Below, in pieces: positions 220 to 38,419 of a DNA stretch of 43,845 bases. The notes beneath the pieces are model-generated. The model searched no databases. It was given only the letters and a program-made list of their open reading frames with translations, and was not told the DNA's origin. The DNA lies in assembly GCA_016650045.1 (NCBI GenBank), contig JAENWK010000009.1, positions 1 to 43,845 of the forward strand, given 5' to 3'. How positions within the stretch are numbered: the stretch's first letter is position 1; every line of letters begins with the position of its first letter. Origin of the DNA: Eubacteriaceae bacterium (lineage in GTDB: Bacteria > Bacillota > Clostridia > Eubacteriales > Eubacteriaceae). A program made the position numbers and the translations under genes.

Positions 220-870
220 ATGTCACACCTTGTAGCACCATCCATTCTTGCGGGCGATTTTGCCAACCTTAGGAAGGACGTCGAAATGCTCAATAGGAGC
301 GAAGCCGATTGGATCCATGTCGATATTATGGATGGTGTTTTTGTTCCAAATATTTCCTTTGGTTTCCCAGTGCTTGCGGCCATAAACCGCTATGCGTCAA
401 AACCGCTGGACGTGCACTTGATGATCATAAAACCGGATAGGTATATCAGTCGGTTTAAGGAGGCGGGAGCCAATCATTTAATAGTCCACATAGAAGCCTG
501 TACCCATTTGCACCGCACCATCCAGGCCATTAAGCATGAAGGGATGCAAGCGGGCGTGGCACTCAACCCGCATACGGCCGTAAACAATCTGGAAGCTATT
601 ATATGCGATATTGACCAAGTACTTATAATGTCTGTCAATCCCGGTTTTGGAGGGCAAAAATTTATAGAACACACCTATCGAAAAATTGAGCAGACGCGTA
701 ATTTAATTGTGAAAAGTGGTTCAAAAGCAATGATAGGAGTAGATGGAGGTGTTGATCTTTCTAACGCTTCAAAACTAATTGAACTGGGTGCCGATGTTTT
801 GGTTGCTGGGAGTTCAGTTTTTGGATCATCTAATCCAATAAATACTATTGCCACATTAAAAGCATTATAA
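220..870 (+). CDS. rpe: Ribulose-phosphate 3-epimerase
   Basis: This cytosolic TIM-barrel enzyme interconverts ribulose 5-phosphate and xylulose 5-phosphate in the pentose phosphate pathway. The 216-residue product has the usual family length and all the main signatures: APSILAGDFANL at the N-terminus, HVDIMDGVFVPNISFG around residues 33-48 with the metal-binding His and catalytic Asp, LDVHLMI, a His in IVHIEA, the phosphate loop NPGFGGQKFI near residue 140, the second Asp in GVDGGV, and the C-terminal VAGSSVFG. The ATG at 220 fits the family N-terminus, with only a few codons before the first strand. It stands alone, about 24 kb from the other pentose phosphate genes in this window. The call is very secure. 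Confidence 0.97.
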   Translation: MSHLVAPSILAGDFANLRKDVEMLNRSEADWIHVDIMDGVFVPNISFGFPVLAAINRYASKPLDVHLMIIKPDRYISRFKEAGANHLIVHIEACTHLHRTIQAIKHEGMQAGVALNPHTAVNNLEAIICDIDQVLIMSVNPGFGGQKFIEHTYRKIEQTRNLIVKSGSKAMIGVDGGVDLSNASKLIELGADVLVAGSSVFGSSNPINTIATLKAL

Positions 871-1224
871 GGTTTCTACGAAACGTATCGAAAGTTACTT
901 TTAGATCATTTTAAAAATAATCGTCCGTAAAATCCCCAACGGCCTAAAAATATGACATAATACCTGCCGGCAGGACTCAAGTCTATTTTAGGTTTCTAAA
1001 CGGATAAGCATATTTTAAAATATTCTTCAGATGGGAATTTTATCAAAATTATAAGATAAATTTGTTAATCTTCTCGAAATTAAAGCTTTAATTTAGTAAC
1101 CCTCAATTTCCGACAGAATAATATCTAATTAGCCTTTTCAGATAGTTAAGGTGAATTGCAATTCAATACAAACTGCATGGCATAATAAATCATCGGCAAA
1201 TAGTGAAGGTGGAAAAAATCCAAA
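871..1224. other. Gene-free spacer between rpe and the ackA remnant
   Basis: I see no gene in this A+T-rich spacer. It contains a 12-bp perfect palindrome, cctgccggcagg, at 963-974, which shares its core with the longer inverted repeat at 26898-26936. Next comes one copy (984-1022) of a diverged sequence also present at 2467-2504. Confidence 0.5.
984..1022. repeat. Diverged direct repeat, copy 1 (partner 2467-2504)
   Basis: Both copies follow the pattern tattttaggt, short variable bases, taaacgga, variable bases, catatt, then A/T. About 30 of 38 positions agree by eye. In each case the copy lies just downstream of a palindrome: 963-974 here, and 2412-2461 for the partner. The repeat may be a remnant of one duplicated intergenic element. 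Function is unknown. Confidence 0.45.
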
Positions 1225-1604
1225 ATGAAAGAAAGCTATTGCATACTAACCATCAACGGCGGTTCGTCCAGCATCAAATTTTCTTTGTACAGGGACAAAG
1301 AATCCCTTGAACTGTTTTGCTATCAAACCAAAAATGGATCGGGTTTTTTGCTGCAGTGCTTGGCGGTTTAGATACGTTGGTATTTTCCGGCGGTATTGGA
1401 GCACATTCCCCTGAAGTGAGAAATAAAATATGTGACGGTCTTGGTTTTCTGGGAATAGAATTGGATGAAATAAAAAAAATGAATAATGAGGGCATTATTT
1501 CAACAGAAGCAAGCAAGGTAAATGTATGCGTTATTACAACCAATGAAGAAGTTATGATAGCAAGGCAGGTTAATAATGTTTTGAATAAATCAACTAAAAA
1601 ATAG
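1225..1604 (+). pseudogene. ackA: Acetate kinase remnant with large internal deletion and frameshift
   Basis: Acetate kinase interconverts acetyl phosphate and acetate with ATP and is normally about 400 residues. Here the ATG at 1225 opens a frame with the phosphate-1 signature ILTINGGSSSIKFSLY, which runs only to a stop at 1369-1371 (48 codons). In a second frame, from about 1317 to 1604, lies the family's C-terminus: AAVLGGLDTLVFSGGIG, then SPEVRNKICDGLGFLGIELD and the terminal VNVCVITTNEEVMIARQ. Only about 30 N-terminal and 90 C-terminal residues remain, in different frames, so the middle (roughly 270 residues) is missing. No intact copy and no phosphate acetyltransferase or phosphoketolase gene is visible in this window. 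I infer an inactivated gene. A functional C-terminal peptide started at the TTG at 1317 is unlikely. Confidence 0.9.
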
Positions 1605-1745
1605 TGAAAAAGAAACAAAAGTCAATAATCAAAAGATGTCCGAATCAAATATATAGCATCAATAATGGTATAATACTTAAGGGCATTTAAGTATGTACCT
1701 TTTTGTCAGCAAATTTTAATCAAAATAATTTAAAAAAAAACAATC

Positions 1746-2186
1746 ATGAAAACACTACAAACATTGACATTGGCAATCGTATTAGTAACGCTATTCGCAT
1801 CCTGCCAGTCCACATCAGCTCAAAAGCAAGACCTTTCAAACAAGGAAACAAGAAAAGAAATCATGGCCACAATTGCCAATGATAGCATCATGTCAAATGA
1901 AATGATAACTGCAATGATGGATGGCAAAAATGGGATGATGATGCGGAACCGCCAAATGATGGGTATGGAAAATCGCAGTTCAATGATGAATATGCTGAAA
2001 GATAACCCTGACATGATGCAAAATATGATGTCCGCAATGATGGAAACATCTAAAGGTGATACCATTATGATGTCCGGAATGATTAGAACTATGATGGAAA
2101 ACCCGCAAATGATGCAGATGATGCAAAATAGGACTGGTAATAAGATGATGAACGGCATGAACCATATGGGCGGGAAAGGCAATTGA
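1746..2186 (+). CDS. Methionine-rich lipoprotein
   Basis: The 146-residue protein begins with a lipoprotein signal: a charged start, a hydrophobic stretch LAIVLVTLFA and a lipobox with Cys20 (FASC). It is therefore probably exported and lipid-anchored. The mature part holds about 33 methionines in some 126 residues, many as MM pairs (MMQMM, MMNMLK, MMM), and no further cysteine. Such Met clusters are typical of periplasmic proteins that bind Cu(I) or Ag(I) through thioethers, so metal buffering is my inference and is not shown. It is followed closely by a 39-residue membrane peptide (2232-2351), and a SHOCT-type membrane protein with a similar N-terminus lies at 4725-4940. Similar companions are often found near copper-handling genes, but no copper ATPase or efflux gene is visible here. 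Confidence 0.75.
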   Translation: MKTLQTLTLAIVLVTLFASCQSTSAQKQDLSNKETRKEIMATIANDSIMSNEMITAMMDGKNGMMMRNRQMMGMENRSSMMNMLKDNPDMMQNMMSAMMETSKGDTIMMSGMIRTMMENPQMMQMMQNRTGNKMMNGMNHMGGKGN

Positions 2187-2231
2187 TCGCATAATTTAAA
2201 TAAAGTTTTTAAATTTTAAAAAATAGAAATC

Positions 2232-2351
2232 ATGATGCACAATAATGGAGATAATTATTTATGGGGAATGCATATGGGTTGGTGGTTTTTTATAATTGTA
2301 GTTGTTATAGTATTAGCAGTTTGGTTAAGCCGGAACCGGAAAAGAAAATGA
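2232..2351 (+). CDS. 39-residue single-pass membrane peptide
   Basis: The reading frame starts MMHNNGDNYLWGMHMGWW, continues with a hydrophobic helix of about 15 residues (FFIIVVVIVLAVWL) and ends with the basic tail SRNRKRK. This predicts one membrane span with the C-terminus in the cytoplasm. The N-terminus strongly resembles that of the 71-residue protein at 4725-4940 (MMNNGYGFMGMHFIWW), but the SHOCT tail of that protein is absent. The start lies 45 bases after the Met-rich lipoprotein gene, so the two are probably co-transcribed. The His and Met residues near the predicted membrane surface could bind metal, which is inference. The similarity to 4725-4940 is the main argument that it is real. 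Confidence 0.6.
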   Translation: MMHNNGDNYLWGMHMGWWFFIIVVVIVLAVWLSRNRKRK

Positions 2352-2411
2352 GTGGGGCATTTAAAAAAATGCTTATCCATATAACACCAATTGATTAAGT
2401 ATGAACCAAAA

Positions 2412-2461
2412 TTGTCATGTCGAGCGCATCCGATAGCTATCGGATGCGCTCGACATGACAA
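2412..2461. repeat. 50-bp perfect palindrome
   Basis: The two 25-base arms are exact reverse complements with no spacer. The centre is gatagctatc and the ends are ttgtcatgtcgagcg and cgctcgacatgacaa. In RNA it would form a very stable hairpin and in DNA a possible cruciform. The outer tgtcatg-tcgagcg part resembles the dispersed sequence tgtcatgctgagcgcagtcg at 38396-38415, so it probably belongs to the same intergenic repeat family. It lies 60 bases after the 39-residue peptide gene and could end that transcript, though no clear T-run follows on the + strand (aaaac follows). Confidence 0.85.
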
Positions 2462-2466
2462 AAACT

Positions 2467-2504
2467 TATTTTAGGTATTTAAACGGACAATCATATTAAA
2501 AAAT
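2467..2504. repeat. Diverged direct repeat, copy 2 (partner 984-1022)
   Basis: The copy begins tattttaggt, then taaacgga and catatt, matching 984-1022 at about 30 of 38 positions. It starts 5 bases after the 50-bp palindrome. Apart from this copy, the small ORF at 2604-2780 and the repeat at 2785-2852, the stretch 2462-3100 shows nothing I can name. Confidence 0.45.
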
Positions 2505-2603
2505 AGGAAAGCGCAATCATTGTTATAGATACAAAAGTATGTGATTTCAGAGGGTTAACTGATAGAGTTAAATGACAGATGCAAAATAGTTAAACAAAAG
2601 TTT

Positions 2604-2780
2604 ATGAAAACCAGCAATATCAATGTACACGTAAAAAAGTTAAACCGTCAACATCAGTATTACAAAAGCCTAAAGACAACCGGTAAGGACGGAACGAAGG
2701 ATCATAAATCAAAGCCTTATCCGCTTGAATTGGATCGAACTAATTTTAATCTGGATTTGCATATTATATGTTGCACCTGA
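2604..2780 (+). CDS. Possible 58-residue basic protein, unrecognised
   Basis: An ATG-started frame of 58 codons encodes a Lys- and His-rich product beginning MKTSNINVHVKKLNRQHQYY and ending HIICCT with two adjacent cysteines. It has no signal peptide or membrane segment and I do not recognise the family. The leader (aaacaaaagttt before the ATG) looks like other starts in this window, and Lys-rich composition is common for small flavobacterial proteins. It sits in an otherwise empty stretch next to repeats, so it could be a chance frame or the 5' piece of a lost gene. Confidence 0.25.
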   Translation: MKTSNINVHVKKLNRQHQYYKSLKTTGKDGTKDHKSKPYPLELDRTNFNLDLHIICCT

Positions 2781-2784
2781 TCAA

Positions 2785-2852
2785 GTGGGAATAATGTAAG
2801 TTATAGATTGGATTGTATAAATCTTTCAGAAAATGGAATTCTACCTTTATAA
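2785..2852. repeat. Diverged intergenic repeat upstream of the aldolase gene (partner 24307-24374)
   Basis: The block begins gtgggaataatgtaa and contains taaatctttc and taccttta. Compared with 24307-24374, about three quarters of 68 positions agree with no gaps needed. Here it lies about 250 bases before the aldolase start. The partner lies upstream of the dehydrogenase remnant and transketolase. Two copies before sugar-phosphate genes suggest a regulatory element or a leftover of duplicated promoter DNA, which is inference. Confidence 0.5.
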
Positions 2853-3100
2853 TAGCAGGATTTGATTGAATCTGAACTCGTTATTGTAATTAGGTACGTC
2901 AATTTCTTTATATCTGCATTTCTATTTATAAACCTTCAGGAACATACTGATGATGCAATGATTCCTTCCTTTTCCATAAGCAAAGAATAAAAATTATGGA
3001 TTTGAGGATTCATTCGCATTGTTGATTAAGTGTTCAGTCCTGAAGTGTGACGGTATGGTTCAACATAAAGGAGAAACTACAAGAATCTGAAAAATATAAA

Positions 3101-4120
3101 ATGAAGAAACAACAATTAAAAGAAACGATCGAACAAATCTTTGCCAACGGGAAAGGAATTCTCGCAATGGATGAAAGCACTCCCACTTGCGACAAACGTT
3201 TTGCCGCGGTAGGAATACCCCTAACAGTGGAGATGCGACAAAAATATCGCGAGCTGATTGTTACAACCCCGGGTTTGAATGAAAGCATTGGTGGCGCCAT
3301 TTTGAGTAATGAAACCATCAGAGAGCAAACAAAAGAGGGTGTGCCGATGGCGAATGTATTGATGAAGGCGGGAATTATCCCGGGAATAAAAGTAGATATG
3401 GGTGCCAAACCCCTTGCTGGTTTTCCCAATGAAAAAATTACAGAGGGACTGGACGGTTTGCGCGAGCGTTTATCAGAGTACAAAACGATGGGTGCCCGTT
3501 TTGCCAAATGGCGCGCAGTAATAACAATTGGCGACAACATTCCTACCACCGCCTGTATTAAGGCCAATGCTTATGCTTTGGCAAGATATGCTGCCCTGTG
3601 CCAGGAAGCCGGTATTGTGCCCATTGTGGAGCCGGAAGTCTTGATGACCGGAAATCATTCTATGCAAGGATGTTATGACGTGACTGAGCAGGTGTTGAAA
3701 ACGCTTTTTTTCCACTTATATCAGTATAGGATTGATTTGGAAGGAATCATCCTAAAACCCAATATGGTGATTGGAGGAACAGAAAGTGGAGTGGGAAACA
3801 GTATTGATGAGGTAGCCGAAGCGACCGTGAATTGTTTGCTTGCATCGGTTCCCGCAGCTGTGCCCGCCATTGCATTTTTATCTGGTGGACAATCGCCTCA
3901 AGAAGCATCGGAACACCTGAATGCCATCAATAAAAATTTTAAGGCCCATCTCCCCTGGATAGTTGCTTTTTCTTTTGCAAGAGCCATTCAACAACCTTGC
4001 TTGGATGCTTGGAAAGGAAAAGACTCAAATCTAGAAGTAGCACAAAAACTGCTATATAACCGTGCAAAGCTCAGTGCTGCGGCGCGTCGTGGGGAATATA
4101 AACCAGAAATGGAAGGATAG
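3101..4120 (+). CDS. Fructose-bisphosphate aldolase, class I
   Basis: This enzyme cleaves fructose 1,6-bisphosphate to dihydroxyacetone phosphate and glyceraldehyde 3-phosphate through a Schiff base, in glycolysis and gluconeogenesis. Counting from the ATG at 3101 (339 residues), the sequence shows GKGILAMDEST with Asp24, a Lys in IKVDMG, KWR with Lys136, EPEVL, the Schiff-base Lys219 in ILKPNMV, and LSGGQS for phosphate binding. This is the vertebrate-type class I fold. The frame also opens at a GTG at 3047, but those 18 extra residues (beginning VWFNIKEKL) do not fit the family N-terminus, so I prefer 3101. It stands alone on the + strand. The diverged repeat at 2785-2852 lies upstream. Confidence 0.95.
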   Translation: MKKQQLKETIEQIFANGKGILAMDESTPTCDKRFAAVGIPLTVEMRQKYRELIVTTPGLNESIGGAILSNETIREQTKEGVPMANVLMKAGIIPGIKVDMGAKPLAGFPNEKITEGLDGLRERLSEYKTMGARFAKWRAVITIGDNIPTTACIKANAYALARYAALCQEAGIVPIVEPEVLMTGNHSMQGCYDVTEQVLKTLFFHLYQYRIDLEGIILKPNMVIGGTESGVGNSIDEVAEATVNCLLASVPAAVPAIAFLSGGQSPQEASEHLNAINKNFKAHLPWIVAFSFARAIQQPCLDAWKGKDSNLEVAQKLLYNRAKLSAAARRGEYKPEMEG

Positions 4121-4222
4121 AAGCTCAGTAAGTGATCTAAGATTCACTTGATATTTATTAAATAAAAAAAGAACCTGTGATGAAAAAATTGAAAAGTCGG
4201 ATGTTCTTTTAAAACAAAAAAG

Positions 4223-4603
4223 ATGAAAAAAAAAGACGGGAAAATCGATAAGCCCATACCAGTACAAAGCAAAGAAAATACTCCAGCCCAAGATAGGGAT
4301 GAAGCAGGGAATAATGCTTTTCCCGGCTATCCCCATTATCCTGCATCCGATGATATTTATAACACAGAAAAAGAAGTGGAATTGAATCCTGAGGACCTCA
4401 GTAAAACCAAAGGTCAAGAAGATAGACCAGGAAAGCGAAATGAAAAGGATTTCTGCGAGGATATGACAGGTGAAGATCTTGACGTACCAGGTTCCAAGGC
4501 TGACGAGACTGAAGGAAATTCCGGAAGTGAGGATGAAGAAAATAATTATTACAGCCTAGGGGGAGACGATCACAACGATCTTGAGGAAGACGAGGGGGAA
4601 TGA
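4223..4603 (+). CDS. Acidic, probably disordered small protein
   Basis: The 126-residue product is strongly hydrophilic. It has a Lys-rich beginning, a central segment NNAFPGYPHYPASDDIYN, and a very acidic tail (GSEDEENNYYSLGGDDHND, then LEEDEGE). There is no signal peptide, no membrane span and only one Cys. Low hydrophobicity and many charged, Pro, Gly and Asn residues suggest an unfolded cytosolic protein. The Tyr/Pro segment and the YYSLGGD motif look conserved rather than random, and I have an impression of similar short proteins in other flavobacteria, without a function. It lies between the aldolase and SHOCT genes with about 100 bases of spacer on each side, so it may have its own promoter. 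Confidence 0.6.
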   Translation: MKKKDGKIDKPIPVQSKENTPAQDRDEAGNNAFPGYPHYPASDDIYNTEKEVELNPEDLSKTKGQEDRPGKRNEKDFCEDMTGEDLDVPGSKADETEGNSGSEDEENNYYSLGGDDHNDLEEDEGE

Positions 4604-4724
4604 AACATAAGTATATCAGAATTATTTATTGACTAATCCCTCAAAGCCTGAGATAATATCAATAAAACTTTTATGACAAAACGAATAATTTTTAAAACAA
4701 TTCACTAATTAAAAACAAAAAGTT

Positions 4725-4940
4725 ATGATGAACAACGGTTATGGTTTTATGGGAATGCATTTTATATGGTGGATCATCTGGATGGTTTTATTATTCTGGA
4801 TATTCTTTACCCCTTGGAATATTCCTGGGGATCGAAGAAAAAGAGACTCTCCGCTTGACATTTTAAAAAAGCGTCTCGCATCTGGGGAAATTACAAAAGA
4901 ACAATATTTGGAACTTAAGAAACTTATGGAAACGAGTTAA
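4725..4940 (+). CDS. Small membrane protein with C-terminal SHOCT domain
   Basis: This 71-residue protein has an N-terminal MMNNGYGFMGMHFIWW, one aromatic-rich membrane span (residues about 14-29, IWWIIWMVLLFWIFF), a short basic linker and a SHOCT module (SPLDILKKRLASGEITKEQY). SHOCT segments are short helical hairpins found at protein ends, thought to mediate oligomerisation. The Met/His-containing N-terminus matches that of the 39-residue peptide at 2232-2351, so the two look paralogous with and without the tail. Such proteins often accompany metal-resistance genes in Bacteroidota. Here the next gene downstream is the molybdoenzyme fusion, 147 bases away. Confidence 0.8.
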   Translation: MMNNGYGFMGMHFIWWIIWMVLLFWIFFTPWNIPGDRRKRDSPLDILKKRLASGEITKEQYLELKKLMETS

Positions 4941-5087
4941 TTAAAACCAGGCTCACTTAAAGTTGTCCAAAGGATTTCTTCATTTAATTTACACCAGGAA
5001 TAAATTAACTTGATGGGTCTTAAAGGGAAAGAGGAGCGTCCCAAGCATTGATGATTTGAGCTAAAATCCGCATTATATTTCTAAAGA

Positions 5088-6758
5088 ATGATACCACATT
5101 TTACAGCAGCTGAAAAAGCATTTACCTACCCTACAGATCGGCGTGCCTATTTAGGCATGAAGCCGTATATGAAGGTGACACTTTTGGTACTTGTGGTTGG
5201 TATATTAGGGGTAGCATGGCTGCAATATCTGTTTTTTGGTTTGCCAGCTGATCCGTCTTCCGCTTTTTTGCCTTTACAGACCACGGGACCATCGGGTTTT
5301 CCTGTTTGGGTAAACTTAAGCCATTGGATCAATTTCTTTTTTCTGGTCTTGATTATAAGAAGTGGTCTTTCTATATTATTTGATCACCCCCGTTTGTATT
5401 GGAATAATAATAGCAAACCAGAAAAACAATGGATAAGATTTACTCCCATTAAGATTCCAAAAGATAAATTTTGGACAGCTAAAGAAGATTCCCGTTATCT
5501 AAGTCCTATTATAGGCTTACCGGGATATAGGCATACAATAGGCATTGCGAGAATATGGCATTTTCTTACCGTTCCTTTTTTTCTTTTAAATGGCGCTATT
5601 TTTATTTTCCTTTTGTTTTATACCAACCAATGGGAACGATTAGTGCCGGTATCATGGCAGATTGTACCTGATGCATGGAATGTTTTGGTTCATTATACCA
5701 CCTTCAATTTTCCTGTTGAACCCAATGGCTTTTATCATTTTAATGCTTTGCAACAACTCGCTTATTTTGGAGTGGTATTTATTTTGGGACCGCTTGCAAT
5801 GCTGACAGGCATCGCTATGTCGCCTGCCGTAGATAACCGCTTCCACTGGTATCCGAAATTGTTCGGCAATAGACAAAGTGCGCGTTCCATTCACTTTTTG
5901 GTGATGATTGCCTTTTGCATTTTTATCCTTATCCATGTCAGTCTGATAGCGGCCACAGGATTGGTGAGGAATATGAACCACATCGTCTTGGGAACTGATA
6001 ATACGGAAAGCTATACCGGGCTTTATATAGGTATAGCAATTGTTTTGGCAACGGTTGCCTTTGCCTTTCTTGCCCACTGGATTTCCTGGAACAAACAGCG
6101 TTCTCTTCAATATCTGCAAAAATCGGTTAATGAAAGACTTTGGAGATTCACCATAAACCGTTTTAAGGCTAAAACTGCCTATCAAAAAAAGAATATTACT
6201 TCCTACTTCTGGTTGAATGGGAGAATGCCAGAATCGGCAAAGTGGAAAAATATGGCTAAAAGTAATTTTGCGGATTATAAGCTTAAGATAGGAGGGATGG
6301 TAGAAAATCCTGTTGAATTATCGCTCGAAGAATTAAAGGAAATAGGCATGGAACAAAACATTAGCATGCATCATTGTATCCAAGGTTGGTCCGGCATTGC
6401 GGAGTGGGGTGGATTGCCGATGAGCAAAATTATTGAATTGGTGAAACCTGATCCTTCCGCAACAACGGTTGCCTTCTTTTCCTATGGAGAAGGTTTATAC
6501 GGTGGTACCTATTACGATACGCATACGCTCGAGAACTGCTTGAAAACCGATTCCATACTGGCCTGGGAAATGAATTACGAACCACTTTCACTTGGCCATG
6601 GTGCTCCGCTGAGGTTGCGCGTAGAAAACCAGCTGGGCTATAAGATGGTGAAATGGATAGAACGCATTAAATTTGTGCAATCCCCTAAAGATTTGGGCAA
6701 AGGCTTTGGTGGTAAAAATGAAGATGACGAATATTTTGATTTATTGGCAGACACATAG
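5088..6758 (+). CDS. Cytochrome b / molybdopterin-dependent oxidoreductase fusion
   Basis: The 556-residue protein joins an N-terminal diheme cytochrome b-like membrane domain (residues about 28-335) to a C-terminal sulfite-oxidase/MsrP-type molybdopterin domain (about 395-545). Six membrane spans can be seen near 30-50, 77-98, 157-179, 222-244, 268-290 and 311-332. His79, His158, His269 and His283 are candidate heme ligands. The catalytic domain has HHCIQGWSGIAEWGG with Cys430 as the likely Mo ligand, followed by SYGEGLYGGTYYDTHTL and GAPLRLRVENQLGYKMVKW. No Tat or Sec signal precedes it. Basic residues cluster in the N-terminus, in loops 2-3 and 4-5 and after span 6, which puts both ends in the cytoplasm. 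The substrate is unknown; electron exchange between quinone and the Mo site is inferred. No cofactor-synthesis gene is nearby. Confidence 0.85.
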   Translation: MIPHFTAAEKAFTYPTDRRAYLGMKPYMKVTLLVLVVGILGVAWLQYLFFGLPADPSSAFLPLQTTGPSGFPVWVNLSHWINFFFLVLIIRSGLSILFDHPRLYWNNNSKPEKQWIRFTPIKIPKDKFWTAKEDSRYLSPIIGLPGYRHTIGIARIWHFLTVPFFLLNGAIFIFLLFYTNQWERLVPVSWQIVPDAWNVLVHYTTFNFPVEPNGFYHFNALQQLAYFGVVFILGPLAMLTGIAMSPAVDNRFHWYPKLFGNRQSARSIHFLVMIAFCIFILIHVSLIAATGLVRNMNHIVLGTDNTESYTGLYIGIAIVLATVAFAFLAHWISWNKQRSLQYLQKSVNERLWRFTINRFKAKTAYQKKNITSYFWLNGRMPESAKWKNMAKSNFADYKLKIGGMVENPVELSLEELKEIGMEQNISMHHCIQGWSGIAEWGGLPMSKIIELVKPDPSATTVAFFSYGEGLYGGTYYDTHTLENCLKTDSILAWEMNYEPLSLGHGAPLRLRVENQLGYKMVKWIERIKFVQSPKDLGKGFGGKNEDDEYFDLLADT

Positions 6759-6813
6759 AAGCACTAAGCGATAGTTTTTACTTCAGAAAATACAATCGTA
6801 AAAAAGTAACGGA

Positions 6814-7149
6814 ATGGAAAATAAAACATCAAACGAGACCGTGGGTATAATGACTACCCTTTCTGAGGTTACGAATTTACTCCAGGAAAAAGGGTATTCG
6901 GCAGATTTTAATCTAAGACCCAACTACCTTGAGTGCGGGGGCAATTCTCTAAAACTATTCCCTGGCGAATTCATTGTAGATAAGCATTATCGTTTTGAAG
7001 GCGCTTCAAACCCCGATGATGAGGCAATTGTATTTGCCATTTCATCCCCAAAATATAATTTAAAAGGCGTATTGATAAATGGATACGGAATTTCCAGCGA
7101 AAGTATTACAGATGAAATGATAAGGGCGTTGGATGAAAAGAAAGACTAA
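6814..7149 (+). CDS. Conserved small protein of unknown function
   Basis: The 111-residue product contains TTLSEVTNLLQEKGYSADFN, LECGGNSLKLFPGEF, HYRFEGASNPDDEAIVFAIS and LKGVLINGYGI. This pattern matches short Bacteroidota proteins that databases often mislabel as phosphoribosylpyrophosphate synthetase. The protein is far too short for that enzyme and lacks its PRPP loop, so I give no enzyme name. The segment DPDDEAI, followed by a strand and a turn, suggests a compact alpha/beta fold. No signal peptide is visible, so it is probably cytosolic. A second in-frame ATG at 6850 would give the more typical N-terminus MTTLSEV, so the first 12 residues are uncertain. It lies 55 bases after the molybdoenzyme gene and 79 before dps. 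Confidence 0.7.
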   Translation: MENKTSNETVGIMTTLSEVTNLLQEKGYSADFNLRPNYLECGGNSLKLFPGEFIVDKHYRFEGASNPDDEAIVFAISSPKYNLKGVLINGYGISSESITDEMIRALDEKKD

Positions 7150-7228
7150 TAACAGAGATAGAAGATTACCCAAATATCGCGCTGAGCGAAGTACATAAAA
7201 TAGAATATTAATTTTAAAATAAAAAAAA

Positions 7229-7705
7229 ATGCAAAAAGCCAACATCGGAATTTCCGATAAAAATAGACAAGCAATTGCTGACCAGTTATCAAAAATACTG
7301 GCAGATGAATTTCTGCTTTATTCCAAAACACTCAATGCACATTGGAATATTGAGGGACCTGATTTTCATGCGGTACACGTGTATTTGGAGACACTCTATA
7401 ATCAACAACAGGAAATTGTTGATACCGTGGCCGAAAGAATACGTGCCGTAGGACATTATGTGCCGGCACAACTTGAAAAATACCTTGAACTCACCCATCT
7501 TTCCGAAAAAAGTACAGATAAAAACGATAGCCAAACTCTTTTTGCCGGGTTATTGGAGGACCACGAAAGTATTATTATCTATTTAAGGGAAAATATAAAA
7601 CCCCTGGCAGATAAATTAAAGGCAGAAGGCATCAGTGACTACATTACCGGTTTGATGGAATACCATGAAAAAACTGCCTGGATGCTCAGGGCCCATTTGA
7701 GCTAA
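7229..7705 (+). CDS. dps: Dps family ferroxidase / DNA-protection protein
   Basis: Dps proteins form 12-subunit shells that oxidise Fe(II) with peroxide, store iron and shield DNA during starvation and oxidative stress. The 158-residue length is typical. The inter-subunit ferroxidase site is intact: His38 and His50 in NAHWNIEGPDFHAVHVYLE, then Asp65 and Glu69 in EIVDTVAERIR. The spacing (12, 15, 4) equals that of characterised Dps sites. The four-helix bundle continues to EYHEKTAWMLRAHL at the C-terminus. There is no Lys-rich DNA-binding tail, so the N-terminus (MQKANIGISDKNRQ) would have to provide any DNA contact. It sits among other stress-type genes with about 80 bases of A-rich leader; regulation cannot be read from the sequence. 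Confidence 0.95.
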   Translation: MQKANIGISDKNRQAIADQLSKILADEFLLYSKTLNAHWNIEGPDFHAVHVYLETLYNQQQEIVDTVAERIRAVGHYVPAQLEKYLELTHLSEKSTDKNDSQTLFAGLLEDHESIIIYLRENIKPLADKLKAEGISDYITGLMEYHEKTAWMLRAHLS

Positions 7706-33422: not shown

Positions 33423-35075
33423 ATGTTCCCAAAAATAAATCCAATACAAACACCAGCCTGGAAAGCGTTGATCGAGCATCAGACCGATATGAAAAAGGTG
33501 CAGATGAAAGACCTCTTTGCCCAGGATCCAAAACGGTTTGAAAAGATGTCTGTTCAGTTTAACGATATCCTCTTCGATTATTCCAAAAACATAATCACCG
33601 ATAAAACCCTTGAAAAGCTTCTGCAACTGACGGAGGATTGCAAGGTAAAAACTGCGATGGAAGCGATGTTTGCCGGTGAAAAAATCAATCAAACCGAGGA
33701 CCGCGCCGTCATGCATACGGCTTTGCGAAACTTTTCGGATAAACCGATTATCGTAGATGGCAAAGACATTATGCAGGAAGTCCGGGAAACACGTAAAAAA
33801 ATGAAATCCTTTTGCGGAAAAATCCACAGCGGAGAGTGGAAAGGCTATACCGGAAAAAAAATCACGGACATCGTAAACATAGGTATCGGTGGGAGCGACC
33901 TCGGGCCAGTAATGGCCACCGAAGCCCTGCGGCCGTATTGGATTGATGGAATTCAGGCCCATTTCGTTTCCAATGTTGATGGCACCCAGATTGTAGAAAC
34001 GCTGAAAAACCTAAACCCCGAGGAAACCCTTTTCACCATCGCATCAAAAACTTTTACCACCCAGGAAACTATGACCAATGCCCACACTGCGCGGGACTGG
34101 TTTTTGTTTTCAGCTAAGGACGAAAAATATGTCGCCAAGCATTTTGTGGCACTTTCAACTAACGAAGAAGGGGTGAAAGATTTCGGAATTGCGCCCGAAA
34201 ACATGTTCACTTTTTGGGATTGGGTAGGAGGTCGCTACAGTCTTTGGAGCAGTATCGGACTTTCAATTGCACTGACAATTGGCTACGACAATTTCGAAAA
34301 GTTGCTCAAGGGGGCCGAGTCAACCGATCACCATTTCAGAACCACCGACTTTAAGGAAAATATTCCTGTGATTATGGCATTAGTGGGAATATGGTACACC
34401 AATTTTTTTGGTTCCGAAACAGAAGCTATTTTTCCTTACGATCAGTATATGCACCGCTTTCCGGCCTATTTTCAACAGGGGAATATGGAGAGCAACGGCA
34501 AGCATACCGACAGAAACGGAAATGACGTAACTTATAGCACGGGCCCCGTAGTTTGGGGCGAACCGGGCACCAACGGCCAGCACGCATTTTATCAGCTTAT
34601 CCATCAGGGCACACATTTAATTCCCTGCGATTTCATTGCGCCTTCCATCAGTCACAATCCTATTGGAAATCACCATTCTATATTGCTCTCTAATTTCTTC
34701 GCCCAAACGGAAGCCTTGATGAATGGGAAAAACGCCGATCAAGTTGCGGCTGAACTCAAGGAGGAGAATATGGATAAATCAAGAATGGAAAAATTGATTC
34801 CCTTTAAGGTTTTTGAAGGCAATAAGCCTACAAATTCGTTCCTGCTTAAAGAGATAACACCATTTTCATTAGGGTCGCTAATAGCGCTTTACGAACATAA
34901 AATATTTGTTCAGGGAGTAATTTGGAATATCTTCAGTTTTGATCAATGGGGGGTAGAACTCGGGAAACAATTGGCTAAAAATGTATTGCCCCAACTGGAT
35001 AATAATAACAAAGTTGAATCGCATGACGCCTCGACCAATGGATTGATAAATGCATATAAAAGGTGGAGAAGTTAA
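33423..35075 (+). CDS. pgi: Glucose-6-phosphate isomerase
   Basis: Pgi interconverts glucose 6-phosphate and fructose 6-phosphate. The 550-residue protein shows the family signatures [18 protein letters not shown] (residues 152-169), [34 protein letters not shown], and [20 protein letters not shown] with the catalytic Glu, then the C-terminal [15 protein letters not shown] with the active-site Lys. It is the last + strand gene of this block. A perfect hairpin follows about 35 bases after the stop and separates it from the convergent GH130 gene. Confidence 0.97.
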
Positions 35076-35109
35076 GGATTCTAGGAGTTAGAAATTTTGG
35101 GTTCCTTGG

Positions 35110-35142
35110 AGACCTAACAGGTCTTTGAGACCTGTTAGGTCT
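35110..35142. terminator. Hairpin between convergent pgi and GH130 genes
   Basis: Arms agacctaacaggtct (35110-35124) and agacctgttaggtct (35128-35142) are perfect reverse complements with a 3-base loop. A very stable stem forms on either strand. Its place between two convergent genes (ends at 35075 and 35184) suits a bidirectional terminator, although no long T-run follows. The sequence also matches a dispersed hairpin type common in flavobacterial spacers. Confidence 0.7.
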
Positions 35143-35183
35143 GGAGCCAGTTTAGAAAAGATATAAATGTTCTCTTTTGAACA

Positions 35184-36269
35184 TCATTTCAATTCCTTAG
35201 GCAAATGGTCAGGTATCTCCATTTTCGCCACACCTATTCTATCGTCGGCCATTCCGTAATACACGTCAATTCTGTTGGGTTGGCCAATATCATCGCGTCT
35301 ATCCGTTCCGGTCGGGAATACTACATCGCCCACTATGCCAATTGTTTCATTGGGTAATTCGGGTGCCAAAATAGGCTCGGGGGAACGGTACAGTATTTTT
35401 TGGGGTGCTTTTTCCGATAAAATCATTGCCCCGGCTGAATAGGTATATTTAGGCTGATCTGCAGTGGAATCGTCATGTTTTCGCACTCCGTGATAGACCA
35501 ACAACCAACCGTACTTCGTTAAAATTGGCGGTGCACCGGATCCAATTTTTAGGTTTTCCCAAGGATAAACCGGATGTGCCAGACAGTGATGGGATGTGAA
35601 TTTTGCATTTTTCAGAGATGTCTCTTTTCCATTTTTCAAGTTGAAATAAGATATCCAGATACTTTCTTTGTGTTCATCACTCTCGTGGGTATCATCGTTT
35701 TCAACAATCTCTTCCGGTCGGGTACCCGGAAACAGAGGACGATTCAACATAGCCATAGAGATGTGGTTATGCGGACTTGGAAGGTCTGTTGGAAAAAAGC
35801 TAGCATCCTTGTTGTCAATTCCGTTAAAATCAATGTCTTCGTACGGTAGAAACTGCACCAGTCCCAAACGCTCCCAATTAAAAAGATCTTTAGACCTCGC
35901 CATGGCAATACGAGGCCCTTTTGATCCATAAGCCGTATAGGTCATTATATAGTGTTCTACTGCTTTCACATAGGTTATCCTCGGGTCTTCACAGCCGCCA
36001 CCGCCATTTGGGCGTTTCTCATAGTCGGCTTCGGGTTCCAGCACTACGCCAAGGCGTTCCACTCCCACGGGGTCTCCAGCCGCATCGAATTTCACTTTTG
36101 CTATCCCTATCCGCGAATAGTTGTTTTTTGCAACCATACGCGGAAAAATATACAGATTTCCGTCCGGTCCACGGGTTACTGCTGGATTGAGAACCCCTTC
36201 AACTTCAAGTTCGTTCCCTTCTTCGGGTTTCATTATGGTACAAATGCGGTGTAATTGGAATGGTGTCAT
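35184..36269 (-). CDS. GH130 family mannoside phosphorylase/hydrolase
   Basis: GH130 enzymes act on beta-mannosides; many are phosphorylases that release mannose 1-phosphate, and some are hydrolases. From the ATG at 36269 the protein has 361 residues. The open frame extends 12 codons upstream to 36305, but MTPFQLHRI is the better start and lies 1 base after the upstream gene's stop. Motifs fit the five-bladed propeller: NPAVTRGPDGNLYIFPRMV, the active-site GGGGCEDPRITYV with the catalytic Asp, YTAYGSKGPRIAMA, GSGAPPILTKYGWLLVYHGV and GIVGDVVFPTG. No signal peptide is present, so it is cytosolic, which suits a phosphorylase. The substrate is not decided by sequence. Confidence 0.87.
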   Translation of the reverse strand: MTPFQLHRICTIMKPEEGNELEVEGVLNPAVTRGPDGNLYIFPRMVAKNNYSRIGIAKVKFDAAGDPVGVERLGVVLEPEADYEKRPNGGGGCEDPRITYVKAVEHYIMTYTAYGSKGPRIAMARSKDLFNWERLGLVQFLPYEDIDFNGIDNKDASFFPTDLPSPHNHISMAMLNRPLFPGTRPEEIVENDDTHESDEHKESIWISYFNLKNGKETSLKNAKFTSHHCLAHPVYPWENLKIGSGAPPILTKYGWLLVYHGVRKHDDSTADQPKYTYSAGAMILSEKAPQKILYRSPEPILAPELPNETIGIVGDVVFPTGTDRRDDIGQPNRIDVYYGMADDRIGVAKMEIPDHLPKELK

Positions 36270-36270
36270 A

Positions 36271-37032
36271 TTATTTTTTTTCACGTTTATCAATGGAACA
36301 AGCAATTACAGTCTCGATTATTCTTTTGGTCTCTTCGGGGTCCCTAACCTGAATACAATCCGCACCGGTTTTTCTGGCTGGGTGATCGTTGCCACCTTTG
36401 AACAGGGCATCCCCTATAAATAGCATATTGGGAATTCCTATACCGAGTATCTCCTTGAGTTTGTTTATCCCATACGCCTTATCAATTCCAGGTTTTGTGA
36501 TGTCAATTGAAGTGGTTCCCCCCATTCCCACAGAAAATCCCTTCAGCGATTTTTCGAGCGGTTTCTTGATCTTTTTGCGTTTTGCAAAATCGGGATCCCA
36601 ACCTTTTTTTTCGTCCAGGGGTGCCTTCTGGCCCAAGGCCGAAAAAGTAATCTGACTGCCGCGATCCTCAATCTGTTTGCCCCAGGTTTTCTTGATGTCG
36701 AAACCTGCTTCTTCGACTGCACTGTGAAGGCTGTCGAGGATTTTTTTCCGCTCCCCATCGGTAAAATTCTCTGCGTACAACTGTTTCCACTCTTTTTTGA
36801 ATTGGTAAAACTTTGTCCCGCAAGTTGGCAGGATAGACAGTTTTTTTACCAATGCCTTTTTAGGTAAATGCTCCAATACCTGTTTCTCAAATTGAGGCCA
36901 ATCGCCCCCAGATATAATAGAGACTTGGGCCACTTCCAATAAATTGCTCAAAAGACCGGCCATTTCTTTGTCGATAGGCAACTTGCTCTTGGCGAGAGTG
37001 CCGTCCAGATCGAATATAATTAGTTTTTTCAT
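36271..37032 (-). CDS. HAD-IIB protein resembling phosphomannomutase
   Basis: The 253-residue protein starts with IIFDLDGTLAKS (nucleophile Asp8 and second Asp10), then SIISGGDWPQFEKQV (about residues 38-52), a C2-type cap (about 85-185), and the C-terminal site FIGDALFKGGNDHPARKTGA (205-224). The GGNDH ending and the SGGxxxxFEKQ segment resemble alpha-phosphomannomutases of the eukaryotic PMM1/PMM2 type more than typical Cof or sucrose-phosphate phosphatases. PMM would convert mannose 1-phosphate to mannose 6-phosphate. A phosphatase role remains possible. The gene lies between manA (5 bases) and the GH130 gene (1 base), which supports a mannose-phosphate substrate. Confidence 0.8.
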   Translation of the reverse strand: MKKLIIFDLDGTLAKSKLPIDKEMAGLLSNLLEVAQVSIISGGDWPQFEKQVLEHLPKKALVKKLSILPTCGTKFYQFKKEWKQLYAENFTDGERKKILDSLHSAVEEAGFDIKKTWGKQIEDRGSQITFSALGQKAPLDEKKGWDPDFAKRKKIKKPLEKSLKGFSVGMGGTTSIDITKPGIDKAYGINKLKEILGIGIPNMLFIGDALFKGGNDHPARKTGADCIQVRDPEETKRIIETVIACSIDKREKK

Positions 37033-37037
37033 GATAG

Positions 37038-38033
37038 TTATTTCATTTCCCTGTCCGGGATTGCCATTTGAAGTAGTGTAATTTGTGGCTCGGGCTGAAG
37101 GTCAAGTTGCCCAATTATTGCTGGCAATAGCATTACTTCACCCTTGCCAATTGAATATTCCGTGTTGTTATACCTCATCGAGCCTTTTCCTTCTGTGCAT
37201 ACTAAAATGACGGGCTCATCTTTAAGACCGACCTTAAATGCCGATTTGTATTTTAATCGCCAAAGTATAAAGTGCTCGTTGTCGAAAAGCTTTTCAACAT
37301 TTTTATTCTTTGCATCTGGAATAGGGGTTACCGGACCGATGTCCACCTGGTCAAAATCAATACAGGCAATGGCTTTCTCCACTTGAAGCTCGCGGGGTTT
37401 TCCGGTTTTCGGATCTTTCCTATCCCAATCATAAAGACGAAAAGTGACATCACTGTTTTCCTGAACCTCAAAAACCACGGTGCCCCCCAGGGTGTGGACC
37501 GTTCCCGAATGGATAAAAACCGCATCCTCCTTTTTGGGTACAAAACTGTGGAGCCGGTCGGCTACAGATTTGTTTTCAATGGATTTGAGCAAGTTCTCTT
37601 TGGTCGTTCCCTTTTTTAAACCTGCGTAAATAAGGCTGTCATCACTGGTTTCCAATACCACCCAGGCTTCGGTTTTTCCAGTATCACCCTTTGGGATATA
37701 CTCTTTTTGTTGGTCTGACGGATGTACTTGTACCGACAAAACTTCCTTACAATCCAGAAATTTCAACAATAGGGGAAAGTGCTCGAAGTGGTTGCCAATT
37801 TTGCCCATAATCTCATAGCGAAAGTCTTCCATCAATTTCGTGATGGTCACTCCTTTCAGCTCACCTTCAGAAACCTCGCTGGCGTGGTCCTTCCGATCGC
37901 TCAACAACCAAGCTTCCCCTATAGGATCATCTTTGGGTAATGGCTTTGAAAGTAAATGTTCCAATTTCCTGCCGCCCCATATTCTATATTGATAGATTGG
38001 GTCGAATTTTAAAGGATAGATTTTATCTTTCAT
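37038..38033 (-). CDS. manA: Mannose-6-phosphate isomerase, type I short form
   Basis: ManA is a zinc enzyme that interconverts mannose 6-phosphate and fructose 6-phosphate. The 331-residue protein matches the short bacterial type I form. It begins with FDPIYQYRIWGGRKLEHLL, then GEAWLLSDR, the metal site VQVHPSD (Gln102, His104), GKTEAWVVL with Glu122, and IHSGTVHTLGGTVVFEVQEN with His180 and the conserved Gln-Glu-Asn. All expected zinc ligands are present. It is the first gene of a three-gene - strand unit with spacings of 5 and 1 bases downstream. The upstream spacer 38034-38419 should contain the promoter. Confidence 0.95.
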   Translation of the reverse strand: MKDKIYPLKFDPIYQYRIWGGRKLEHLLSKPLPKDDPIGEAWLLSDRKDHASEVSEGELKGVTITKLMEDFRYEIMGKIGNHFEHFPLLLKFLDCKEVLSVQVHPSDQQKEYIPKGDTGKTEAWVVLETSDDSLIYAGLKKGTTKENLLKSIENKSVADRLHSFVPKKEDAVFIHSGTVHTLGGTVVFEVQENSDVTFRLYDWDRKDPKTGKPRELQVEKAIACIDFDQVDIGPVTPIPDAKNKNVEKLFDNEHFILWRLKYKSAFKVGLKDEPVILVCTEGKGSMRYNNTEYSIGKGEVMLLPAIIGQLDLQPEPQITLLQMAIPDREMK

Positions 38034-38419
38034 CTTGTTTTATATTAAAATATCTAAAAATTCAGTTTTTTGTTTCCTTAAATCTCCAAGGAATGCATTC
38101 GCTAATATTAACTGTACTACCCACCTGGATTTTTGGGGATTTTCCTCGCAGGATACTTATGGAGATTTCTGTCTATAAAACCCAAACCCAACTTTCAATT
38201 TTCACAGCACAACTGAAAGAAGACTGGGGTTTGACAATTAAAAAGTTGAATAAAGGTAGGCTGCAATCATTGGAATTCAGTTACATATTTGCGATAAAAG
38301 TTACATCTATTACAGATTTATTGCGTTAAAGAATTTAAAAGAATGCCTAAATCAAATCCCAAATTTCAAATCCCAAATTTCAAATCCATAATCTGTCATG
38401 CTGAGCGCAGTCGAAGCAC
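38034..38419. other. Spacer upstream of manA with motif and repeats
   Basis: No credible gene lies here. The block 38296-38320 (aaaagttaca, variable bases, acagattta) resembles 24259-24283 near nuoA and tkt. A 17-base unit of the form caaatcccaaatttcaa is repeated about twice at 38349-38390. The sequence at 38396-38415 (tgtcatgctgagcgcagtcg, continuing aagca) is a dispersed flavobacterial spacer repeat, related to the palindrome at 2412-2461 and to 43821-43840. Confidence 0.55.

Follow-up and report, generated by a model that had tools for sequence, protein, structure and literature searches.

Three adjoining genes in a 43,845-nucleotide stretch of bacterial DNA (contig JAENWK010000009.1 of assembly GCA_016650045.1; hereafter the window, meaning this whole stretch) probably encode a cytosolic phosphorolytic route that would lead in three steps from a beta-mannoside to fructose 6-phosphate. 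They specify a protein of glycoside hydrolase family 130 (GH130), a HAD-IIB protein resembling phosphomannomutases (PMMs) and the mannose-6-phosphate isomerase (PMI) ManA, and are laid out as follows (labels starting with G, C and L are our handles for genomes or bins, contigs and loci; the window is assigned to bin G000):

37038..38033, minus strand: manA, type I mannose-6-phosphate isomerase, 331 amino acids (aa) (TIGR00218, PF20511); predicted to convert mannose 6-phosphate to fructose 6-phosphate
36271..37032, minus strand: probable alpha-phosphohexomutase (HAD-IIB, PMM/PgmH kind), 253 aa (PF03332, TIGR01484); predicted to convert mannose 1-phosphate to mannose 6-phosphate, probably also glucose 1-phosphate to glucose 6-phosphate
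35184..36269, minus strand: predicted GH130 mannoside phosphorylase, 361 aa from ATG (PF04041, motifs, model); D95 acid, K154 beta-1,2 lysine, R177/K241/H260 phosphate site

In the proposed route, the GH130 protein would cleave its beta-mannoside (most likely beta-1,2-mannobiose or an oligomannan) by phosphorolysis and so release alpha-mannose 1-phosphate; the HAD-IIB phosphohexomutase would turn this into mannose 6-phosphate, and ManA would deliver fructose 6-phosphate, which would meet the nearby pgi, aldolase and pentose phosphate genes. The released mannose would enter without expense of ATP and in the cytosol. While the genes, their order, families and residues and their co-occurrence can be read directly from the sequences, the substrates and their linkage, the direction of flux, the cytosolic place and the use of mannose 1-phosphate by the mutase are our interpretation. 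The chemistry from mannose 1-phosphate through mannose 6-phosphate to fructose 6-phosphate after GH130 phosphorolysis, together with its energy advantage, is already in print (PMC4264767).

Results

Layout and families of the gene block

Reading along the minus strand, manA is separated by 5 bases from the HAD-IIB gene and this by 1 base from GH130, just as the tight packing described in an initial annotation of the window had it. An open reading frame tool starts GH130 at a TTG at 36305, overlapping the HAD gene; the ATG at 36269 agrees with the N-termini of GH130 homologues. All three proteins score above the cut-offs of their families: GH130 with PF04041 (130.4 bits, gathering cut-off 26), the HAD-IIB protein with PF03332, the PMM family (45.7 bits, cut-off 22.4), and with TIGR01484 for HAD-IIB (70, cut-off 41.8), and ManA with PF20511 (52.1 bits, cut-off 22) and TIGR00218 for manA (136.6, cut-off 116.2), the last confirming the earlier naming of ManA, as a type I PMI.

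The GH130 protein

Within GH130, the hydrolases lack three basic phosphate-binding residues and use two glutamates, E227 and E268 in BT3780, and a lysine, K199 in BT3780, marks beta-1,2 activity (Cuskin et al., PMC4599007). Matched by motif to the printed rows of 9fj8, 7fip, 1vkd, 5b0p and 9eqq, the window protein has its acid at D95, followed by K154, R177, K241 and H260. We take positions of the R177/K241/H260 type to be phosphate binders. The four positions from K154 to H260 read K, R, R, H in the printed alignment rows of Teth514_1788, Lin0857 and Uhgb_MS, K, R, K, H in the beta-1,2-mannobiose phosphorylase Teth514_1789, and, in the beta-1,4 enzyme TM1225 (PMC8950772), R, R, K, H. Both D95, lying in an EDPR motif, and K154, the equivalent of BT3780 K199, are invariant in 12/12 rows of our GH130 alignment. 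The base glutamates of BT3780, found in the motifs WGE and LTE, are absent from the window protein, where R177 and G243 stand instead; we compared them by motif, since MAFFT misaligns the hydrolases near the R177 motif through its gaps. Two control GH130s, L081 and L076 from G720 and G558, have both YWGE and LTE and, judged by eye, an export signal, and the G720 control matches BT3780 at 592 bits. No export signal was seen by eye in the window GH130.

The predicted model of the protein (pLDDT, the predicted local distance difference score, 88.2; pTM, the predicted template modelling score, 0.91) is a five-bladed propeller and matches GH130 structures over 281-302 residues with a root-mean-square deviation of 1.6-3.1 (top 21 entries), the best match being Teth514_1788 bound to mannose and phosphate. 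In a second structural alignment, the first six entries represent three beta-1,2-mannoside phosphorylases (Z 37.6-39.0), with the BT3780 group at 33.7-34.5 and Leishmania MPT-4 at 23.7; Z differences of such size rank GH130 structures and are no proof of function. We also considered a GT108 mannogen-type protein and ruled it out, as the closest structural relatives are all of the GH130 type: 21 such entries come first in the ranking and the GT108-type 6q50 is at rank 34.

As the basic residues of phosphorylases are present, the glutamates of hydrolases absent and the best-matching structures those of beta-1,2-mannoside phosphorylases, the window GH130 is likely a phosphorylase acting on a beta-1,2-mannoside. 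The initial annotation had made a phosphorylase the condition for its route; residues and fold now speak for one, from which we infer that mannose 1-phosphate would be formed.

Some related sequences are recorded here for completeness. Another GH130 subfamily, at L070 6521-7528 and L012 602-1636 (56% mutual identity), has Y in place of the usual basic phosphate residue K/R; the G558 type follows the mutase in 8/30 loci. For another linkage, PMC8950772 names a Zobellia beta-1,3 phosphorylase. In many genomes of the phylum of G000, the C-terminal part of the window GH130 is matched inside open frames of ~1,200 aa, which may encode a fusion or an exceptionally long protein containing GH130.

Linkage of the three genes across genomes

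The arrangement manA-HAD-GH130 is found again on contig C103 of the bin, in Gelidibacter salicanalis and Kaistella jeonii, and in G852, G322 and G439. In G558, fba, manA and the HAD gene precede a GH130 from a different subfamily (35-40% identity); in a Mucilaginibacter metagenome-assembled genome (MAG) only HAD and GH130 adjoin, and in G720 the two are ~220 kb apart. Loci reached through the GH130 query (those of the window, C103, Gelidibacter, Mucilaginibacter, G322 and G439) are biased towards linkage and are excluded from the fractions below. Among 395 Bacteroidota genomes, 3 have an orthologue of the GH130 (E<=1e-50) and 4 the mutase (E<=1e-20), and all 3 have both; the chance of such 3/3 co-occurrence is ~4e-7 if genomes are independent, which they strictly are not. 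Kaistella (G458), found through the GH130 query, is the centre of this sample and is counted; leaving it out gives 2/394 and 3/394. The mutase adjoins GH130 in G852 and Kaistella, lies apart from it in G720, and stands with the other GH130 subfamily in G558.

In a second survey, 35/296 genomes from the family of G720 had the mutase. We inspected 30 mutase loci of this family, 1.5 kb to each side, those of G720 and G558, already known, being among them. A GH130 gene stands beside the mutase in 16/30, eight of the window type and eight of the G558 type, and manA in 9/30, with one further manA cut by a contig end. A class I aldolase occurs in 10/30 and RmlA in 3/30 (confirmed by TIGR01207 in 3/3); nine of the 30 loci have none of the neighbour genes tested. 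In a tree of 38 mutases, the eight with G558-type GH130 neighbours share one side of a branch (90/92); the three with RmlA neighbours form one clade (100/97) within a seven-row group that includes one GH130 neighbour. The neighbour labels are clustered, but that for window-type GH130 needs 5 changes, and the tree includes near copies.

The initial annotation had suggested surveying how often the three genes co-occur, and the outcome is a conserved link: the association of GH130, mutase and manA is real. Its recurrence connects mannoside phosphorolysis with a bacterial HAD mutase family about which little is known, and provides a testable function for two GH130 subfamilies, the window type, without NCBIfam equivalog, and the G558 type, without the usual phosphate residue.

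The probable HAD-IIB mutase and ManA

The nearest solved relative of the HAD protein is 4bnd, an alpha-phosphoglucomutase of Lactococcus lactis, both by sequence (E 3.8e-44, full-length) and by fold (E 1.1e-28, TM score 0.86, 37% identity; pLDDT of our model 89.1); PMM2 comes next by sequence, at E 1.2e-16. The 4bnd enzyme goes by the name PgmH. The residues D8, D10, G11 and T12 of the DxDGT nucleophile motif are invariant in 10/10 homologues, as is Q135, which is shared with 4bnd and aligns to the PIGR arginine of mouse PMM2, R141 in the human protein. With glutamine at this place, we rejected a eukaryotic-type PMM proper. In 14 control genomes, PF03332 is present in one, that of L. lactis.

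The protein is likely a mutase, with the sugar left undecided by its sequence. Because 4bnd is closest while both GH130 and, less often, RmlA adjoin the gene, our best guess is a dual PMM and phosphoglucomutase (PGM), a single kind of enzyme that may act on either sugar; PMC8808168 reports both activities for HAD5 of Plasmodium falciparum. The initial annotation's HAD-IIB protein with PMM-like motifs is supported as one of the PMM/PgmH kind, as opposed to a plain phosphatase; with an alpha-phosphoglucomutase as nearest solved relative and RmlA beside 3/30 homologues, mannose 1-phosphate is a candidate substrate only. Ordinary phosphohexomutases (PF02878) number 2-3 in each of the five genomes searched (Kaistella, the Mucilaginibacter MAG, G720, G852 and G558), so the HAD protein would be an extra enzyme, and we dismissed the idea of a substitute for a missing one. 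At L107, L114 and L125, a PgmH-type mutase gene lies directly downstream of rmlA (TIGR01207 over its cut-off in all three), which suggests a role with glucose 1-phosphate there. Besides an intact mutase gene, G1108 has another copy that three stops disrupt (G1108:C2:115300-115725).

Kaistella and G852 have no type I PMI match other than the triad ManA, and G558 has one more; the Mucilaginibacter MAG and G720 each encode a single ManA elsewhere. With no other match of its type in two triad genomes, ManA must also serve general metabolism and is not dedicated to the route.

Surroundings of the block

On the downstream side of GH130, the window continues with two features:

35090..35180, no strand: stem-loop stretch between the convergent GH130 and pgi; 15 uninterrupted pairs and no distinct T run; folding energy -31.6 kcal/mol (z -6.4)
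33423..35075, plus strand: pgi, glucose-6-phosphate isomerase (PGI; PF00342 801.7 bits, NF001211 over cut-off); shares fructose 6-phosphate with ManA

The initial annotation had the route enter at a substrate shared with pgi, and the family matches bear out this identity; pgi is convergent with GH130 and 108 bases from its stop. The same convergent neighbour adjoins GH130 in C103 and Gelidibacter, and a glucokinase gene intervenes in Kaistella. The stem-loop, possibly a shared terminator of GH130 and pgi, was not called by our terminator scan; the sigma-70 and terminator scan gave counts no higher than in shuffles, and a Bacteroidota promoter pattern had 5 matches against 2.5 expected, none of them upstream of manA. 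One exact copy of the 23-mer TGTCATGCTGAGCGCAGTCGAAG lies upstream of manA, at 38394-38416, beside short GATTTGAAATTTGG repeats; we take this 23-mer to be a dispersed repeat of Bacteroidota.

The scan of the window neighbours showed genes for complex I, the pentose phosphate pathway, an aldolase, an AlkB-like and an ICMT-like protein, and no sugar transporter, SusC/D or glycanase; a putative porin (PF16930) is encoded two genes, or 1.6 kb, upstream of manA. Elsewhere, the genes next to the triad include pgi, fba and phosphoketolase (G852), fba (G558) and glucokinase (Kaistella). It also lies near a pyrophosphate-dependent phosphofructokinase (PPi-PFK) gene at L063 (G322:C7) and near phosphoketolase at L064 (G439:C79); both bins are from the phylum of G000, and the triad in them would represent bin contamination or horizontal transfer. 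These neighbourhoods fit an internal source of mannoside or an uptake system encoded elsewhere. The earlier proposal's route from mannosides, if these are external, stays a conjecture, as the scan of the neighbours turned up neither a sugar transporter nor a glycanase.

Origin of the contig

No match to the window GH130 was found in any of the 18 congeners of the assigned bin. A PGI match is present in 16 of them, ~27-31% identical to that of the window and in frames of 446-462 aa (the other 2 have none), and G000 itself has a PGI of this ~450-aa kind on contig C153. The window PGI (550 aa) has 86-89% identity with its counterparts in Gelidibacter salicanalis, Kaistella jeonii and contig C103. 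Given this identity and the different PGI of the bin itself, the window is probably a flavobacterial contig within an unrelated bin. With a contig that looks foreign to its bin, counts against the bin's relatives are uninformative, and we rejected these as a background sample. The same bin holds a second block on C103 (L011, 962-14250), with manA-HAD-GH130 facing pgi-pgl-zwf-gnd-tal-rpiB-tkt-fba (rpiB named by likeness; pgl, zwf, gnd, tal, tkt and fba by Pfam) and identities to the window of 81% for GH130, 84% for HAD, 82% for ManA and 89% for PGI; it may stem from a duplication or from another strain or species.

Discussion

Several observations weigh against the three-step route. No NCBIfam GH130 equivalog scores over its cut-off with the window protein (best 132.5 of 450), the GGCEDPR motif around its acid resembles that of hydrolases, and the G558-type GH130 in the same slot has Y at the place of K241. 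The closest solved mutase is an alpha-phosphoglucomutase, RmlA, a user of glucose 1-phosphate, accompanies the mutase at some loci, and GH130 is absent within 1.5 kb to each side in 14/30; of the genomes behind these 14, the one searched whole (G720) has its GH130 ~220 kb away. Lastly, no sugar uptake gene was found in the cluster. The GGCEDPR motif would suit a GH130 hydrolase whose released mannose is phosphorylated by a kinase, and the NCBIfam model of BT3780 is second best, albeit far below its cut-off (95.9 of 550). With both catalytic-base glutamates replaced, the phosphate residues present, no export signal seen by eye and a mutase gene adjoining, we consider a hydrolase very improbable and reject it on the residue evidence. 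HAD-IIB proteins are mostly phosphatases, and PF08282 also matches the HAD protein, at 35.4 bits; the higher score of PF03332, and the fact that all 17 sequence matches among solved chains and the first 24 fold matches are mutases, with inosine monophosphate (IMP) nucleotidases coming after, make a sugar-phosphate phosphatase very hard to believe. More deserving of attention, if still unlikely, is that the HAD protein is mainly an alpha-phosphoglucomutase in the PgmH role and a chance neighbour of manA and GH130, mannose 1-phosphate being left to the ordinary phosphohexomutases. Its kinship with 4bnd, the loci with RmlA and the PF02878 enzymes of all five genomes searched are in line with this; the GH130s of two subfamilies that adjoin the mutase in over half of the loci surveyed are not, and PGM activity alone leaves the 3/3 co-occurrence with GH130 unexplained.

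The same genes could also be read in reverse. They would then build up and break down a store of beta-1,2-mannan in the cytosol, resembling the mannogen of Leishmania, fructose 6-phosphate being converted through mannose 6-phosphate to mannose 1-phosphate and the GH130 lengthening the chain by reverse phosphorolysis at low phosphate. Teth514 enzymes do build 1,2-beta-oligomannan from mannose 1-phosphate (PMC4264767), and the lack of transporter, SusC/D and glycanase genes among the scanned neighbours, as well as the company of pgi, fba, pentose phosphate, phosphoketolase or PPi-PFK genes here and elsewhere, would suit such a reserve. We entertain it because of a second GH130 that co-occurs with the mutase and partly adjoins GT4-type genes. 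This second protein, in a frame of ~490-520 aa, is present in all five genomes searched, and its ~500-aa type in 56/395 Bacteroidota, including 4/4 mutase genomes (chance 3.7e-4, in a test chosen after seeing the data). It adjoins a long GT4-type gene in C195, Kaistella and G558, 3/6 genomes viewed; in G852, G720 and the Mucilaginibacter MAG no adjacent GT4-type gene was seen by eye. The ~500-aa type is, however, without assigned function, the primer and the first mannosyl donor step are without candidate, and the mannan itself is hypothetical, none having been seen. We therefore regard a reserve made by the three genes as rather doubtful, and the wider idea, that some Bacteroidota keep a cytosolic beta-1,2-mannan tied to the fructose 6-phosphate pool through manA, mutase and GH130, with the second GH130 and its GT4 neighbours helping to build the chain, as a speculation of slightly lower standing. 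The phosphorolytic route to fructose 6-phosphate is what we favour; whether some Bacteroidota handle internal rather than imported beta-mannan is a question that these genes raise. L013 (G000:C195) carries at 292-7525 a 496-aa GH130 of the ~500-aa type near two GT4-type genes and a NagB-like gene (by eye), and also a 388-aa protein with likeness to GH100 and debranching enzymes.

Comparison with known systems

In the literature covered, which leaves out most subscription journals, we found no paper on the three genes as one unit or on the HAD mutase within it, and none naming GH130 together with Pedobacter; PMC4264767 is the one paper found to combine GH130, phosphomannomutase and mannose-6-phosphate isomerase. 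The mannoside catabolism of the BT1033 type in Bacteroides thetaiotaomicron, as given in the part of that paper seen, takes the same three chemical steps through PMM and PMI, and its mutase is not described there as a HAD protein. The window mutase is one, and the three window enzymes are encoded in a single tight group next to pgi and genes of the pentose phosphate pathway. The genes of the BT1033 type sit with glycan uptake or degradation genes. Closest to the window GH130 in sequence and fold are Teth514_1788 and Teth514_1789 (9gph, 9fj8, 7fip), which share K154, R177 and H260 with it; K241 is common to the window protein and Teth514_1789, and Teth514_1788 has R there. Identity over the aligned core is 37-38%, the window protein being ~50-60 residues longer, and the Teth514 genes lie in a cluster with ABC transporter and GDP-mannose genes (PMC4264767).

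The HAD protein matches 4bnd over its full length at 36-37% identity and has the same Q at the place of the PIGR arginine; 4bnd is titled an atypical alpha-phosphoglucomutase, and the window protein is instead linked to GH130 and manA. PMM1, PMM2 and P. falciparum HAD5 belong to the same family, PF03332, but are 22-27% identical to it, with Q135 where PMM2 has the arginine. The GT108 MPT enzymes of Leishmania share the propeller fold of the window GH130 (6q50, Z 23.7) at 17% identity, and the mannogen cycle shares the beta-1,2-mannose chemistry predicted for it (PMC8950772); GT108 has members that use GDP-mannose, and a reserve polymer in the window system would be conjecture. Overall, the route is a known one, here probably built with an unusual HAD mutase in a compact cluster.

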